The notes beneath the pieces were generated by a model. The model was not told the origin of the DNA. It was given only the letters and a program-made list of their open reading frames with translations, and did not search any database. A DNA stretch of 51,670 nt, from contig JAFSVI010000063.1 in assembly GCA_017445145.1 (NCBI GenBank), positions 1 through 51,670 on the forward strand, read 5' to 3'. The position numbers and the translations under genes were made by a program. Origin of the DNA: Bacteroidaceae bacterium (GTDB lineage: Bacteria > Bacteroidota > Bacteroidia > Bacteroidales > Bacteroidaceae). Positions 6,387-39,193 of this stretch are shown piece by piece. The first letter of the stretch is position 1; the number at the start of each line of letters is the position of its first letter.

Positions 6387-8450
6387 ATGGACTTCAACAG
6401 CAAGAACACACTGCCACGCTACCTCTTCATCATCATACCGATGACGCTCGTGGGCCTCGCCGTCATCGGCAAGGCTGCATTCGAGATGACCGCACGCAGC
6501 GACTACTGGGAGCGCGTGCGCAAGCGCCTGGAGAAGCAGCAGCGCGACATACCCGCCATACGCGGCAACATCTACTCGGCCGACGGACAGCTCATGGTGG
6601 GGTCGCTGCCTGTCTATAACCTGCGCATGGACTTCGTCATACAGGACCCCAGCGAGAAAGCCGTGGAGAAACGACGCCACAGCCGCGACACCCTGTGGGC
6701 TGCCAAGAAGGACAGCTTCTGCATGGGGCTGCACGAACTCTTCCCCGAGAAGAGCGCCAAGGAGTACATGCAGCTCATCGAGTCCCACTGGACGAGTCGA
6801 CGCCGCAACCTGCTCATTGCGCGCAACGTGTCGTATATCAAGTACAAGCAGTGCATGGATTTGCCCTACGCCAAGGCCGGAGCCATAGCCACGGGCTTCT
6901 ATGCCGAACCCGTGCCACAGCGACGCAAACCCTACGGGTCGCTCGCCAGCCGCGTGCTCGGCACCTATGACGCCCTTGCCGACTCGGCGCGCAACGGCCT
7001 GGAGTTTGCCTACGACAGCATCCTGCGCGGCGTCAATGGCAAGAAACATCTTGAGAAGGTGCGCAACAGGTGGATGGACCGCACGGACATCGAACCCATC
7101 GACGGGTGCGACATCATCACCACGCTCGACGTGGGCATGCAGGACGCGGCAGAGAAGATTCTCAGCCGCAAGCTCGCGGAACTCGATGCCGAGATTGGAG
7201 TGGTGGTGCTCATGGAAGTGAAGACCGGCGACGTCAAGGCCCTCGTCAACCTGGTGCGCACGGCGCCCGGCGAGTACCGCGAAGGGGCCAACTATGCGCT
7301 CACGGCACTGTGGGAACCCGGCTCCACGTTCAAGACGGCATCCATGATGGTGGCTCTGGAGGACGGCGTCGTCAAGCGCGGCGACATGATCGACACCGGC
7401 AACGGCACATGGCCCATGCACGGCCGCACGATGAAAGACCACAACTGGATACGTGGTGGCTACGGGCGCATCAGCGTCGATGAATGCCTGATGTACTCGT
7501 CCAACGTGGGCGTGAGCCGCATCATCGACAATGCCTACCACGACCATCCCGAGAAATACGTCGATGGCCTCTACCGCGAGGGCGTCGGCGTGGGCTTCGA
7601 CATGCAGATCCCCGGCGCCGCAAAACCCAATGTGCGGCGCCCCAAGCCCAACGACCCTTATTGGTACAAGACCACACTGGCCTGGATGAGCATAGGCTAC
7701 GAGACCCAAATCCCACCCATATACACGGCCACGTTCTACAACGCCATCGCCAACAACGGACGCATGGTCAAGCCGCGATTCGTCAAGGAGATACGCAAGG
7801 ACGGCATCACATACGAGGAGTTTCCCGTCGAGGTCATCAAGGAGCGCATCTGCAAGACCAGCACGCTGCGCGACATACACGCCATACTGGAGCGCGTCGT
7901 CAACGACCCCAAGGGCCTGGGACGCAAGGCCGGCAGCAAGCTCTTCAAGGTGTGTGGCAAGACGGGCACGGCACAGGTGGCCGACCGCGAGGGGGGCTAC
8001 CACAGCGGCCGCTCGCGCTACATGGTGAGCTTTGCCGGCTACTATCCCAGCGAGAAACCTCGCTACACATGCCTCGTGTGTATCAAGAAAGCCGGCCTGC
8101 CGGCCTCCGGCGGCGGACATGCCGGGCCGGTGTTCAGCGAGCTGGCCCACTACGTGATGTCGCAGGGCGTGTATAAGGAGGTCGATGCCGCCTTCGACAG
8201 CACCTCCGTTGTGCGCCCCGCCAACCATGTCGATGAAATCATAGCCACGGCACGCAAGCTGCCGATGGCCGAGACACCCGACGTCGTGGGCCTTGGAGCC
8301 AAGGACGCCGTGGAGCTGCTCGAGGCCCGCGGCTATGCCGTGCGCATCCACGGCCGCGGCCGCGTGGTGGGGCAGAGCATACGCGCCGGCTCGCCAGTGG
8401 TGAGGGGCAAGACCATCACGCTGGAGCTGCACATGCCCCGCACCCCGTGA
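6387..8450 (+). CDS. ftsI: Peptidoglycan D,D-transpeptidase FtsI (PBP3/SpoVD type) with PASTA domain
   Basis: 687 residues. An N-terminal membrane helix (about 12-32) is followed by the PBP dimerisation domain ([18 protein letters not shown]) and the transpeptidase domain. Active-site motifs are intact: STFK with nucleophile S313 and K316, SSN at 371-373, and KTGT at 525-528. A C-terminal PASTA domain occupies about 629-683 ([20 protein letters not shown]). It cross-links septal peptidoglycan with FtsW. The start at 6387 leaves a 9-base gap after ftsL. The stop codon lies in the first unit of a 22-bp tandem repeat. Confidence 0.96.
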
Positions 8451-8512
8451 CCCCCATCCAAGCACCAAGTGGCCCCCATCCACGCACGCCGTGGCCTACA
8501 TCCAAGCAACAA
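8447..8512. repeat. Three tandem 22-bp repeats between ftsI and murE (copy B)
   Basis: Units 8447-8468, 8469-8490 and 8491-8512 each start GTG and contain a CC-TACATCCA or CCCCATCCA block and GCA. The ftsI TGA lies in unit 1. The period equals that of the GCCGCGGC arrays, and unit junctions read GCCGTGGCC, so this may be a diverged member of the same family. Confidence 0.8.
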
Positions 8513-8527
8513 AAGAAATCCAACGAT

Positions 8528-9988
8528 ATGAAACTCTCACAACTTCTTCAGGGCGTTGACCCCATCCAGCTCCTCGGCACGACCGACGTGGAGGTGACGG
8601 ACATCGCCATCGACTCGCGCCAGGCCCAGCCCGGCACCTTGTTCTGTGCCATGCGAGGCACGCAGACCGACGGCCACCGTTTCATCCCCAAGGCCGTGGA
8701 GCAGGGAGCATCCGTCGTGGTGTGCGAGACGCTCCCCGACGACATTGCCGACGGGGTCACCTACGTCCGCGTGGCCGACACCGAGGCGCTCATAGGCCCA
8801 CTGGCCACCACCTTCTTCGGCGACCCAACGTCGCAGCTCGACCTCATCGGTGTCACCGGCACCAACGGCAAGACCACCACCGCCACCTTGCTCTACAACA
8901 TGTTCCGACGCTTCGGCTACAAGTGCGGACTCGTATCCACCGTGTGCAACTACATCGACGGCTGCCCGCTGCCCACTGACCACACCACACCCGACCCCGT
9001 CACCCTCAACCGTCTGCTCGGTCAGATGGCCGACGCCGGGTGTGCATACGTGTTCATGGAGGTCAGCTCCCACAGCGTGGCGCAGAAGCGCATCGGCGGC
9101 CTGCGCTTTGCCGGGGGCATATTCACCAACCTCACCCGCGACCACCTCGACTACCACAAGACCGTCGAGGCATACCGCGACGCCAAGAAGGCTTTCTTCG
9201 ACATGCTGCCCGACGATGCCTTTGCCGTGACCAATGCCGACGACCGCAACGGCATGTTCATGGTGCAGAACTGCCGCGCACGCGTCATCACCTACTCGCA
9301 GATGGGCGTGGCAGACCATCGCGCACGCATCCTCGAGGAGAGCTTCGACGGCATGGACCTCGACCTCGACGGCCGTCAGGTGTTTGTGCAGTTCATAGGG
9401 CGCTTCAACGTCTCCAACCTGCTGGCTGTATATGCGGCGGCGCTGGCCATGGGGGCCAAGAGCGACGAGGTGCTGGTGGCGCTGAGCGCACTGCGACCCG
9501 TCAACGGCCGCTTCGAGACCATACGCTCGGCCAGCGGCGTGACGGCCATCGTGGATTATGCCCACACACCCGACGCCCTCGACAACGTGCTTGCTACCAT
9601 CAACGACATACTGCGCCGACCGGGACGCTGCATCACCGTGTGCGGCGCCGGGGGCAACCGTGACAAGGGCAAGCGACCCCTCATGGCGCAGAGCGCCGTG
9701 CGCGCCTCCGACCGCGTCATCATCACCTCCGACAATCCCCGCTTCGAGGAGCCGCAGGACATCATCAACGACATGCTTGCGGGCCTCACGCCCGACGACA
9801 TGCGCAAGGTGGTGGCCATTGCCGACCGCCGCGAGGCCATACGCACTGCCGCCATGCTCGCACAGCCTGGCGACGTCATCCTCATTGCCGGCAAGGGCCA
9901 TGAGGACTATCAGGAGGTCAAGGGCGTGAAACACCATTTCGACGACCACGAGGTCGTGCGCGAGGCGTTCGGGATACGGGCTCAGTGA
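8528..9988 (+). CDS. murE: UDP-MurNAc-L-alanyl-D-glutamate:meso-DAP ligase
   Basis: 486 residues from ATG 8528. A GTG at 8447 would add 27 residues of repeat sequence and is rejected. The ligase adds the third stem-peptide residue. Visible: N-terminal substrate domain with [23 protein letters not shown] motif [14 protein letters not shown] near residue 110, the carbamylated-lysine region [19 protein letters not shown], and DNPR in [17 protein letters not shown] is the motif associated with meso-diaminopimelate rather than lysine selection. The stop codon overlaps the first heptamer of a GTGAGAA array. The downstream neighbour is an inserted IVS-type gene rather than mraY. Confidence 0.96.
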
Positions 9989-10030
9989 GAAATGAGAAAT
10001 GAGAAGTGAGAAGTGAGAAATGAGAAGTGA
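9985..10030 (+). repeat. Left heptamer array (GTGAGAA/ATGAGAA)
   Basis: Six full units of RTGAGAA plus GTGA run from the murE stop codon to 10030. The sequence is the reverse complement of the TTCTCAC array at 10462-10577. Together they enclose the four-helix-bundle gene. Confidence 0.9.
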
Positions 10031-10082
10031 TACCTATGAGGTTTCAAGGAAGTTCAACCATAGACATATAAGACTATTAGAC

Positions 10083-10448
10083 ATGAGATACGATGACGGC
10101 GGTCCTCTGAAGACCAAATCTATGGACTTCAGTGTTCGCATCTACAATCTTGGAAGGCTTCTCAACAGCAGGGGAGAACAAACACTTCGCGGACAGGTGG
10201 TGCGGGCGGGAACATCAATAGGAGCCAATATCTCTGAGTCCCGCCGCGCAGAATCACTCGCAGACTTTATCCACAAGCTGTCCATCGCCCAGAAGGAATG
10301 CGAGGAAACACGCTACTGGCTGGAGCTGCTATCCAAAATTGGCCTCATTACTGAAGCCGAATACCAATCTATTGACACAGACGCGGCCGAGATTGACCGT
10401 ATTCTATCTGCAAGCATTAATACCGCCAAAGGACGGAATAAGGACTGA
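10083..10448 (+). CDS. Four-helix-bundle protein of the 23S rRNA intervening-sequence (IVS) family
   Basis: 121 residues from ATG 10083; the frame is open from ATG 10020 (142 residues), but that start lies in the repeat array. Family features: KTKSMDFSVRIYNLGRLL, the central RAGTSIGANISESRRAES motif and KLSIAQKECEETRYWLELL, typical of the TIGR02436 four-helix-bundle family. Relatives are encoded in 23S rRNA intervening sequences and, as Avd, in diversity-generating retroelements; they form barrel-like pentamers and bind nucleic acid. The function of stand-alone copies is unknown. The gene interrupts the conserved murE-mraY junction, has lower GC than its neighbours, and is bracketed by inverted heptamer arrays. 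Lateral insertion is inferred. Confidence 0.88.
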   Translation: MRYDDGGPLKTKSMDFSVRIYNLGRLLNSRGEQTLRGQVVRAGTSIGANISESRRAESLADFIHKLSIAQKECEETRYWLELLSKIGLITEAEYQSIDTDAAEIDRILSASINTAKGRNKD

Positions 10449-10461
10449 TTCCAAAAAACTA

Positions 10462-10577
10462 TCACTTCTCACTCCTCACTCCTCACTTCTCACTTCTTAC
10501 TCCTCACTCCCAACTTCTCACTTCTCACTTCTCACTTCTCACTCCTCACTCCCTACTTCTCACTTCTCACTTCTCAC
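10462..10577 (+). repeat. Right heptamer array (TTCTCAC/TCCTCAC)
   Basis: Sixteen consecutive heptamers, mostly TTCTCAC or TCCTCAC with a few variants (TTCTTAC, TCCCAAC, TCCCTAC). They are the reverse complement of the left array. The array ends 20 bases before the mraY ATG. Confidence 0.92.
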
Positions 10578-10597
10578 TAAAAAAACGTACACACTTC

Positions 10598-11863
10598 ATG
10601 CTATACTATCTCTTCCGATACCTCAGCGAGTTTGGCATCTCCGGCTCACACATGTGGAGCTACATCTCGTTCCGTGCACTGCTGACGCTGGTGCTCTCGC
10701 TCATCATTGCTGCCTGGTTCGGCGAGTGGTTCATCAAGTTCATGCGCCGACGCAAGCTCAGCGAGGCGCAGCGCTCGGCCGACATAGACCCCTATGGTGT
10801 CGATAAAGTCGGTGTGCCGTCGATGGGCGGCGTCATCATCATCGTGGCCACCATAGTGCCATGCCTGCTCTTCGGCCGCCTGCGCAACATCTACATGCTG
10901 CTCATGCTGGCCACCGTCGTGTGGTTCGGCCTCCTGGGCTTCTGGGACGACTACACAAAGATGAAACGCTCGAAGGACGGCATCAGCCCCATCTACAAGC
11001 TCGGAGGCCAGGCCGTGTTCGGCCTCATCGTGGGCCTCGTGCTGTGGGCCAGCCCCGACGCCGTCATCCGCGAGAACATCAAGACCGAGAAGCAGAACGG
11101 CGTGGAGGTGGTGACCCACAAGAGCGACCCCGTGAAGAGCACGCTCACCACCATACCCTTCGTCAAGAACAACAACCTCGACTACTCGGCACCCTTCTCC
11201 GCCCTTGGCGACTGGAAAGGCGCGGCCGGGTGGGTGCTCTTCGTGCTCGTGACCACCTTCGTGGTGATGGCCGTGAGCAACGGTGCCAACCTCAACGACG
11301 GCATGGACGGCATGTGTGCCGGCAACTCCGCCGTCATGTGCCTGACGCTGGGCATCCTGGCCTACGTGTCGAGCCACATCAACCTTGCGGCCTACCTCAA
11401 CATCATGTACGTGCCGGGCAGCGAGGAGCTGGTGATATTTCTCCTCGCCTTCGTAGGGGCGCTCATAGGCTTCCTCTGGTACAATGCCTATCCGGCCCAG
11501 ATCTTCATGGGCGACACGGGCAGCCTGGCCATTGGCGGCGTCATCGCCGTGACGGCAGTCATCATCCACAAGGAGCTGCTCATACCCGTCATCTGCTTCG
11601 TGTTCCTCATGGAGAGCATCAGCGTGCTGCTGCAGACCAACTATGCACGCTATGGCAACAAGCGCGGGCTGAAGCTGCGTGTGTTCAAGCGCGCGCCGCT
11701 CCACGACACCTTCCGCGTGGCTCCCGGCCAGCTCCCGGCCAACTTCAAGGTGCTCCTCAACTGGCCCAAGGGCTGCTGGCTGGAGTCCAAGATCACCGTG
11801 CGTTTCTGGATCATCACCATCATGATGTGTGCGCTGGCGGTGGTGACGCTCAAGATAAGGTGA
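10598..11863 (+). CDS. mraY: Phospho-N-acetylmuramoyl-pentapeptide transferase
   Basis: 421 residues with about ten membrane helices. It transfers phospho-MurNAc-pentapeptide to undecaprenyl phosphate, forming lipid I. Motifs: SMGGVIII after KVGVP, GFWDDYTKMK with the DD pair, NGANLNDGMDGMCAG with the NxxN/D..D group, YPAQIFMGDTGSLAIGG, and the HDTF segment in place of the usual HHH loop. It is longer than the E. coli protein because of an insert after helix 4 (about residues 160-205), usual in Bacteroidota. The start ATG 10598 follows directly after the heptamer array, so its leader differs from that of a typical dcw cluster. Confidence 0.96.
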   Translation: MLYYLFRYLSEFGISGSHMWSYISFRALLTLVLSLIIAAWFGEWFIKFMRRRKLSEAQRSADIDPYGVDKVGVPSMGGVIIIVATIVPCLLFGRLRNIYMLLMLATVVWFGLLGFWDDYTKMKRSKDGISPIYKLGGQAVFGLIVGLVLWASPDAVIRENIKTEKQNGVEVVTHKSDPVKSTLTTIPFVKNNNLDYSAPFSALGDWKGAAGWVLFVLVTTFVVMAVSNGANLNDGMDGMCAGNSAVMCLTLGILAYVSSHINLAAYLNIMYVPGSEELVIFLLAFVGALIGFLWYNAYPAQIFMGDTGSLAIGGVIAVTAVIIHKELLIPVICFVFLMESISVLLQTNYARYGNKRGLKLRVFKRAPLHDTFRVAPGQLPANFKVLLNWPKGCWLESKITVRFWIITIMMCALAVVTLKIR

Positions 11864-13289: not shown

Positions 13290-13331
13290 TACCATTTTAC
13301 CATTTACCATTTACTATTTACCATTCACCCT
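13290..13331 (+). repeat. TTACCAT heptamer array between murD and ftsW
   Basis: Six consecutive heptamers: TACCATT, TTACCAT, TTACCAT, TTACTAT, TTACCAT, TCACCCT. It is a second 7-bp array in the same cluster, with no gene attached. Confidence 0.8.
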
Positions 13332-13363
13332 TTGGCCCTACGGCATCAACACCTGATTAGACT

Positions 13364-27144: not shown

Positions 27145-27197
27145 GCACCGAGTGAGCAGCGAGTGGGCACCGCGCCCGTAAGCGAGCGCCTCTTGCT

Positions 27198-27345
27198 CAA
27201 AGCGCCTCTCGCTCCAAGCGTCGCGCCTCGCTCTCCAAGCGCCTCTCGCTCCAAGCGCTGCACCTCGCTCTCCAAGCGCCTCTCGCTCCAAGCGCCTCTC
27301 GCTCTCCAAGCGCCTCTCGCTCCAAGCGCTGCAGCCCTCCAAGCG
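27198..27345 (+). repeat. Minisatellite of CCAAGCGCCTCTCGCT units
   Basis: CCAAGCG (or CAAAGCG) begins at 27198, 27214, 27235, 27251, 27272, 27288, 27306, 27322 and 27339, spaced 16-21 bp. The array fills most of the spacer between flotillin and the next gene. Confidence 0.85.
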
Positions 27346-27369
27346 CCTCGCTGACAACAATCTTCTAAT

Positions 27370-39006: not shown

Positions 39007-39037
39007 ATCAGTGGCTGTTTGTCGCGCATCTGCCGCG

Positions 39038-39169
39038 CTGTCGTGTCGCATCTGCCGCGCTGTCGTGGCGCTGTTGTCGCGCTGTCGTGGCGCTGTTGCC
39101 GCGCTGTCGTGGCGCCGTTGTCGCGCTGTCGTGGCGCTGTTGTCGCGCTGTCGTGGCGCTGTTGTCGCG
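39038..39169. repeat. Six tandem 22-bp repeats in the cotH leader (copy D)
   Basis: Units start at 39038, 39060, 39082, 39104, 39126 and 39148, with five nearly identical copies from 39060. Each contains CTGTCGTGGCGCTGTTGTCG. The array lies between the -7 element at 39194-39201 and the CotH gene start codon. Confidence 0.92.
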
Positions 39170-39193
39170 CTATTGCTGTGCGGAAAACGGCGG

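Follow-up and report, generated by a model that had tools for sequence, protein, structure and literature searches.

The murE–mraY locus

The window analysed here is the whole stretch of 51,670 nucleotides from a Bacteroidaceae bacterium, and its genome is a 2.73-Mb draft. Between murE and mraY, it holds a gene of the S23 (four-helix-bundle) family that is enclosed by two arrays of heptamers, the second being the reverse complement of the first (Table 1). A reading made from the letters alone (the sequence-only reading) had described an IVS-type four-helix-bundle gene between inverted heptamer arrays, with murE and mraY as its neighbours and the first array starting on the murE stop codon. All of this is borne out by profile models for the S23 protein and both neighbours, by the copies counted in each array, and by the murE reading frame, which ends at 9988 with its TGA (9986–9988) inside the first GTGAGAA of the left array.

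Table 1. Coordinates of the S23 cassette and its host genes in the window.
Feature	Position	Strand	Basis
murE (upstream host gene); TGA stop within first heptamer	8447..9988	+	ORF list, NCBIfam NF001126
Left (5′) arm, ~6.6 RTGAGAA heptamers	9984..10030	+	Period-7 repeat detection
Leader, left arm to likely start codon	10031..10082	+	Comparison with nearest relative
S23 / four-helix-bundle gene, 121 aa	10083..10448	+	PF05635, TIGR02436
Right (3′) arm, ~16.7 heptamers TTCTCAC/CTCACTC, reverse complement of left arm	10462..10578	+	
mraY (downstream host gene)	10598..11863	+	ORF list, TIGR00445

The right array repeats with a period of 7 at 85% matches, mixing TTCTCAC with CTCACTC variants, and 19 nt separate it from the mraY start codon. 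The two arrays are 431 nt apart and give nine gapless inverted pairs of 47–60 nt, 78–86% complementary, at spacings of 427–501 nt. Although the S23 frame stays open upstream as far as an ATG within the left array (10020), the likely start is 10083, because homologues align from there. The leader has zero differences from the nearest relative, and all 4 differences within 10031–10448 are coding.

The S23 protein

The protein matches PF05635 with an E-value of 2.9e-27 and 95.4 bits (cut-off 33.8), and TIGR02436, the S23 (23S-rRNA-IVP) model, with 107.4 bits against a cut-off of 24. Among solved structures, the one closest to it is PDB 2rld (E 3.9e-54; the entry has five chains), followed by 2gsc. 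The S23p of Xanthomonas is described, in the available part of the source, as a homopentamer of four-helix bundles (PMC4990558). Searches with PF05635 and the NCBIfam profiles gave no match of the window protein to an enzyme family. By the ORF list and profile searches, S23 is the only gene recognised between the arms; no transposase, other recombinase, site-specific nuclease or reverse transcriptase was recognised within the unit. The protein is under purifying selection, with dN/dS values of 0.03–0.16 in 12 hand-chosen pairs.

The family is abundant in the genus: PF05635 is above its cut-off in 120 of 139 genomes, and the maximum in one genome is at least 17 matches (E 0.001), both among the matches listed. 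The window's own draft genome has one S23 gene that exceeds the family cut-off, and a weak second PF05635 match of 26 bits, below the cut-off, lies there in a 259-aa frame (locus L002, C147:4658–4801). No relative of the window protein turned up in a scan of viral contigs.

Mirrored arms around S23 genes

Mirrored flanks were scored with an exact test, passed when the 250 bp on either side of a gene share an exact inverted match of at least 12 nt. The genus set comprised the window locus and 60 fetched regions around the best-scoring PF05635 places among the matches listed, with 66 S23 ORFs, 64 of them with enough flank. The test was passed by 34 of the 64 S23 genes versus 5 of 429 other ORFs of at least 300 nt in the same regions. 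When the genes most closely related to that of the window were added, inverted matches were found in 55/93, direct matches in 6/93 and matches between shuffled partners in 23/461. Among named genomes (the best 80 of at least 583 loci matching one peptide pattern), 37 of the 80 had inverted and 7 direct matches. In a phylum-wide set the result is weak (inverted 6/30, direct 4/30), with many degenerate heptamers by eye.

Arms were also aligned with mismatches and gaps in 175 cassettes; the genus cassettes came from the 60 regions, the 30 loci that best matched the window protein and one extra region (95 unique). Orthologous copies are counted separately in the cassette totals, and independent origins are fewer. 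A score of at least 40 was reached in inverted orientation by 89/175, with a median arm of 36 bp, versus 8/175 in direct orientation and 3/519 shuffled pairs; about half of the S23 genes (86/175, score below 40) have no detectable arms. Period-7 arrays are detectable on both sides in 41 of the 175, and in 40 of these 41 the two units agree when one is inverted (27 without mismatch, 13 with one), whereas in direct orientation they differ at three or more positions in 40 of the 41.

The word itself varies by locus. Across 115 arms there are 56 distinct heptamers with the consensus ARTKNAN (A-R-T-[GT]-N-A-N), a motif of 3.66 bits versus 3.03 ± 0.09 for shuffled units (12 shuffles). Units in the genus include AATTCAC, AATGGAC, TTGAAAG, GGATTAG and GGTTATA, and other genus loci use units of 8 or 9 nt (GTAGTTAA, AAGAAGTTA). 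At two loci (L082:9290–9429 and L087:9338–9482) the arms are a variant of the array type, in which a short motif (GAAGTTA or GGTTAAT) alternates with differing small palindromes. The idea that the heptamers are chosen as translation stops in all frames was rejected, a stop being present in the sense arm for 42 of 56 units versus 39.9 ± 2.9 after permutation.

Tandem arrays are common in the genus also without S23: 59 of the 75 period-7 arrays in the genus regions do not adjoin an S23 gene, and control spacers have some period 7 as well (z 2.7 and 5.5). This abundance could suggest an ordinary small gene lying beside neutral, slippage-prone repeats that appear mirrored because arrays are so frequent, but the excess of inverted over direct and shuffled matches in the set of 93, the agreement of inverted units in 40 of 41 cassettes and the examples in five phyla largely contradict this explanation, which we consider very improbable. 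The flanks on both sides of S23 have autocorrelation peaks at lags 7, 14 and 21, and the lag-7 excess is 0.065 and 0.089 in the named set and 0.052 and 0.071 in the genus, versus 0.040 and 0.029 in control spacers.

Distribution and position in operons

The sequence-only reading had proposed searching genomes for the same gene family with inverted arrays. Such cassettes do occur far beyond the window locus, in Bacteroidota, Bacillota, Verrucomicrobiota, Acidobacteriota and Cyanobacteriota. In the named set (best 80 of at least 583), the isolates Bacteroides oleiciplenus and Xylanibacter brevis pass the 12-nt inverted test, the latter with the window's own heptamer. The metagenome-assembled genomes that pass include ones labelled Clostridia/Oscillospiraceae, Opitutales, Acidobacteria, Ignavibacteriales and the cyanobacterium Symploca, labels that may be wrong for single contigs.

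Twelve plasmid or phage loci were hand-picked from the 22 listed hits of 28 matching records. The clearest arms among them belong to four cyanobacterial plasmids, with exact inverted matches of 36 nt in Nostoc C052, 32 nt in Nostoc commune SO-36, 31 nt in Dolichospermum and 32 nt in Aulosira. Over 100 kb of the Nostoc C052 plasmid, there are four period-7 arrays, and their sole inverted pair encloses the S23 gene. Three further cyanobacterial loci have inverted matches of 16–18 nt, two of them also direct ones (17 and 25 nt). The loci of Bernardetia, Treponema and Euhalothece have heptamer arrays with inverted matches of only 8–11 nt, and the Treponema locus a direct match of 28 nt; in two phage contigs (unverified) S23 is present and arrays are absent. 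On a plasmid of Anabaena cylindrica (L286:1480–1827), cas2 and cas1 are separated by an S23 gene, and repeats of the AAGTAAA type occur close to it on either side.

Both neighbouring genes could be called for 156 of the 175 cassettes. The two share the strand of S23 in 121, lie together on the opposite strand in 5 and are mixed in 30. The median gap to the same-strand stop upstream is 61 nt, and that to the next same-strand start 54 nt. Because of the strand counts (121 versus 5) and these short distances, most cassettes are placed within operons, in sense orientation.

Empty and occupied sites

Two spacers were surveyed in the closest genomes: murE–mraY in 30 of 130 matching genus genomes and sdhA–sdhB in 30 of 106, 28 of the latter being resolved. 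The comparison with empty sites that the sequence-only reading had suggested gave occupied and empty forms of both spacers, as is characteristic of transposons. At murE–mraY, S23 is present in 3 genomes (the window's, G130 and G022) and the other 27 have a spacer of just 12–182 bp, which agrees with the claim of an insertion between normally adjacent genes. Period-7 arrays are detected in two of these 27 spacers, and several more have other short repeats by eye. The copies in G130 and G022 both have arrays, and the opposite picture, the same gene in the same place with no arrays and vertical descent, is not what these relatives present.

The sdhA–sdhB spacer is 0–9 bp long in 12 of the 28 genomes (0 being an alignment overlap, L305), and is filled by a different palindromic element of 126–176 bp in 11 and by S23 cassettes of 461–651 bp, with three kinds of arms, in 5. 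At base level, these cassettes lie between the sdhA stop, often supplied by the first arm, and the sdhB start, and no target site duplication is apparent there by eye. Occupancy requires two changes on the mraY tree (30 rows) and five on the sdhA tree (28 rows), both being single-gene trees. In the window, the sdhA–sdhB spacer (1510–1636) holds a palindromic element of ~127 bp with GGACCC ends and inner hairpins, in which no gene is recognised; by eye it is like the other 126–176-bp elements of the 11 genomes, of which the window's genome is one, in a spot used elsewhere by S23 cassettes.

Exchange between lineages

Between the window and its nearest relative, G130, the cassette is 99.0% identical, whereas the flanks are at 85–88% (murE part 85.3%, mraY 87.8%). 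Because of this difference, the window cassette has evidently been exchanged between lineages as a unit that ends at the arrays, where the similarity drops back. Four-fold sites differ at 0/57 positions in the cassette versus 51/140 in murE and 81/206 in mraY, and the high identity includes the non-coding leader. None of 61 other 400-nt segments is as alike as the cassette; the corresponding counts in three further pairs are 0/41, 0/36 and 0/90, all four pairs having been selected for a very alike S23 gene.

The same lineage at the same site, a patchy set of hosts and a unit more alike than its flanks are the marks of homing-like elements. All three are found here, but in a hand count of 46 listed pairs, the similarity of the gene exceeds that of either flank in 22, is below that of either in 9 and lies in between in 12, with 3 incomplete, a pattern that is compatible with allele swaps but also with other histories. 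Movement to new sites seems rare, because the S23 clades mostly keep their sites; four rows not labelled as sdh site fall inside the sdh group with moderate support. The S23 of G022 at murE–mraY shares a clade with that of the window at 62% amino acid identity, others being at 53% or less. On the right, this copy carries an array of 15-mers, and on the left a short arm whose sequence is unlike the window's; the two arms match inverted over 15 nt. Since these arms differ from those of the window but still pair inverted, both have changed and kept their match.

The stem in the transcript and the nature of the unit

A long stem carrying the gene in its loop had been proposed as a possible fold of the transcript, and the predicted fold does pair the arms (MFE −197 kcal/mol, z −5.3 against 20 shuffles). 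By this prediction, the ends form a stem enclosing the unit, as in an intervening sequence (IVS). The mismatches between arms, however, have no G–U bias in the sense RNA: 64 are of the wobble type versus 91 of the opposite type, and such a bias was rejected. Of the mobile or RNA-processing unit that the sequence-only reading had suggested, the mobile part is supported by unit exchange and empty sites; for the RNA part, the predicted fold and the sense orientation in operons are in favour, but the distribution of mismatches is not. RNA excision of the cassette would be plausible, even if the wobble-pair test did not favour it.

The cassette might be an mRNA intervening sequence kept for the host, in which the arms would be an RNase III site separating S23 from the host mRNA, and S23 a domesticated RNA-binding regulator. 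We regard this as quite unlikely: the purifying selection on S23, the operon location, the fold and the precedent of IVSs (in the accessible portion of PMC4990558) are in its favour, but it does not sit well with the scattered occupancy that single host-gene trees give (two changes over 30 rows and five over 28), the exchange as a unit or the negative wobble test. The lack of wobble bias would rather suit a pure DNA element, whose arms would be terminal inverted repeats for a trans-acting enzyme, S23 being a DNA-binding accessory and the RNA stem a by-product. Empty and occupied sites, exchange as a unit and the RTGAGAA arrays that stand alone at the ends of other genes in this lineage also fit such an element, although the strong sense orientation in operons (121:5) is unexpected for a DNA-only unit, no nuclease or transposase is recognised within it and no target duplication is apparent by eye at sdhA–sdhB; in our opinion it is unlikely.

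The reading that we prefer, and think reasonably probable, is that of a small homing-like mobile cassette of the S23/IVS kind that resides in operon spacers and is related to rRNA intervening sequences. The cassette is read as small, mobile and site-faithful because the S23 gene is framed by mirrored arrays of differing words across phyla. It would consist of one S23 gene between inverted arrays, typically an ARTKNAN heptamer 5′ and its reverse complement 3′, seated after one gene's stop codon and ahead of the following gene's start. Its own promoter may be unneeded, because it mostly lies in sense within the operon. Empty as well as occupied sites exist and cassettes are far more alike than their flanks, so species evidently gain and lose it, and exchange it with one another, at constant sites, in the manner of homing elements; the arms would be its ends and probably the place where recombination swaps the unit. 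In the transcript, the arms would form a long stem that may be a target of RNase III, like that of 23S rRNA IVSs, and cleavage there would leave the host operon intact. Either as RNA or as DNA, the arms are probably bound by the S23 pentamer, and template switching between them is one possible route for a new unit to reach both.

More tentatively, and with greater doubt than belief, S23 cassettes could be a distinct, phylum-crossing homing-like class with ARTKNAN arms that is the source, instead of slippage alone, of the heptamer arrays that occur between genes in Bacteroidota and Cyanobacteria. Arrays standing alone would then be scars, and rRNA IVSs a branch settled in 23S rRNA; the arms would be rewritten together, so that the cassette would have its own way of copying arm to arm.

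Relation to known systems

REP/BIME sequences with RAYT, and MITEs, are small intergenic inverted-repeat units, some of them tied to a gene. Unlike these, the S23 cassette has no transposase, and its arms are arrays with locus-specific units. The Avd protein of diversity-generating retroelements is a small four-helix-bundle pentamer; in contrast, there is no Avd model among the NCBIfam matches of the window (1e-3) and no reverse transcriptase between the arms. The short tandemly repeated repetitive (STRR) sequences of cyanobacteria are intergenic heptamer arrays. Both these and the TAACTGA arrays of Beggiatoaceae resemble the S23 arms in being intergenic heptamers, and several S23 genes of cyanobacterial plasmids sit between such arrays. 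In the available part of one report, the Beggiatoaceae arrays run as direct repeats apart from one inverted case, the S23 gene goes unmentioned, and the heptamer arrays of Beggiatoaceae, Cyanobacteria and Bacteroidetes are described mainly as direct repeats (PMC4679880).

The closest relatives are the 23S rRNA IVSs of Leptospira, Coxiella and others, which have the same protein family and the gene within a terminal inverted repeat. According to the portion of the source at hand, the Coxiella IVS is likewise a unit of ~430 nt with 2–3 tandem heptamers before the S23 ORF, treated as strain variation, and is cleaved by RNase III in vitro (PMC4990558). S23 cassettes differ in lying in operon spacers and in having long tandem arrays as arms, and whereas the Coxiella ORF is described there as undergoing reductive evolution (PMC4990558), the cassette protein is under purifying selection. 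The unit of the window is no 23S rRNA insertion: it lies between murE and mraY, and the E. coli 23S matches no fetched locus. In two genomes of Flavobacterium columnare, a four helix bundle gene between those of guanylate kinase and nicotinate-nucleotide adenylyltransferase is tabulated under phage elements (table 5 of PMC5524665, as far as its accessible text goes), and this is possibly another operon-spacer cassette.

What is already known, from 23S rRNA IVSs, is the S23 family and its gene inside a stem. A literature search found nothing that links S23 genes to inverted heptamer arrays, or the two to operon insertion; many subscription papers lay outside it, and novelty is unproven. We think that there is a real chance that S23 cassettes are a class of their own. 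The large "four helix bundle protein" family gains a genomic anatomy, with mirrored heptamer arms, a position in operons and exchange as a unit. Moreover, a concrete source is offered for intergenic heptamer arrays that the accessible literature has so far treated as direct repeats, together with a tie to rRNA intervening sequences. Two questions become testable, namely the ligand of the S23 pentamer and the joint change of two distant arms.

Solo arrays and other repeats

Elsewhere in the window's own genome (L046:2968–3046, C137), a solo RTGAGAA array overlaps the end of a gene that we take to be queC-like (putative), and no S23 gene was seen near it. In the nearest relative (L108:2760–3010), a solo RTGAGAA-type array of ~250 bp follows mraY, and a palindromic stretch comes after it, before murD. 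The window has a solo TACCATT array of ~6 units (13290–13333) just past murD, in the same gene cluster, and long tandem arrays at 27180–27349 and 39031–39171, with units of 16–37 nt and 22 nt.
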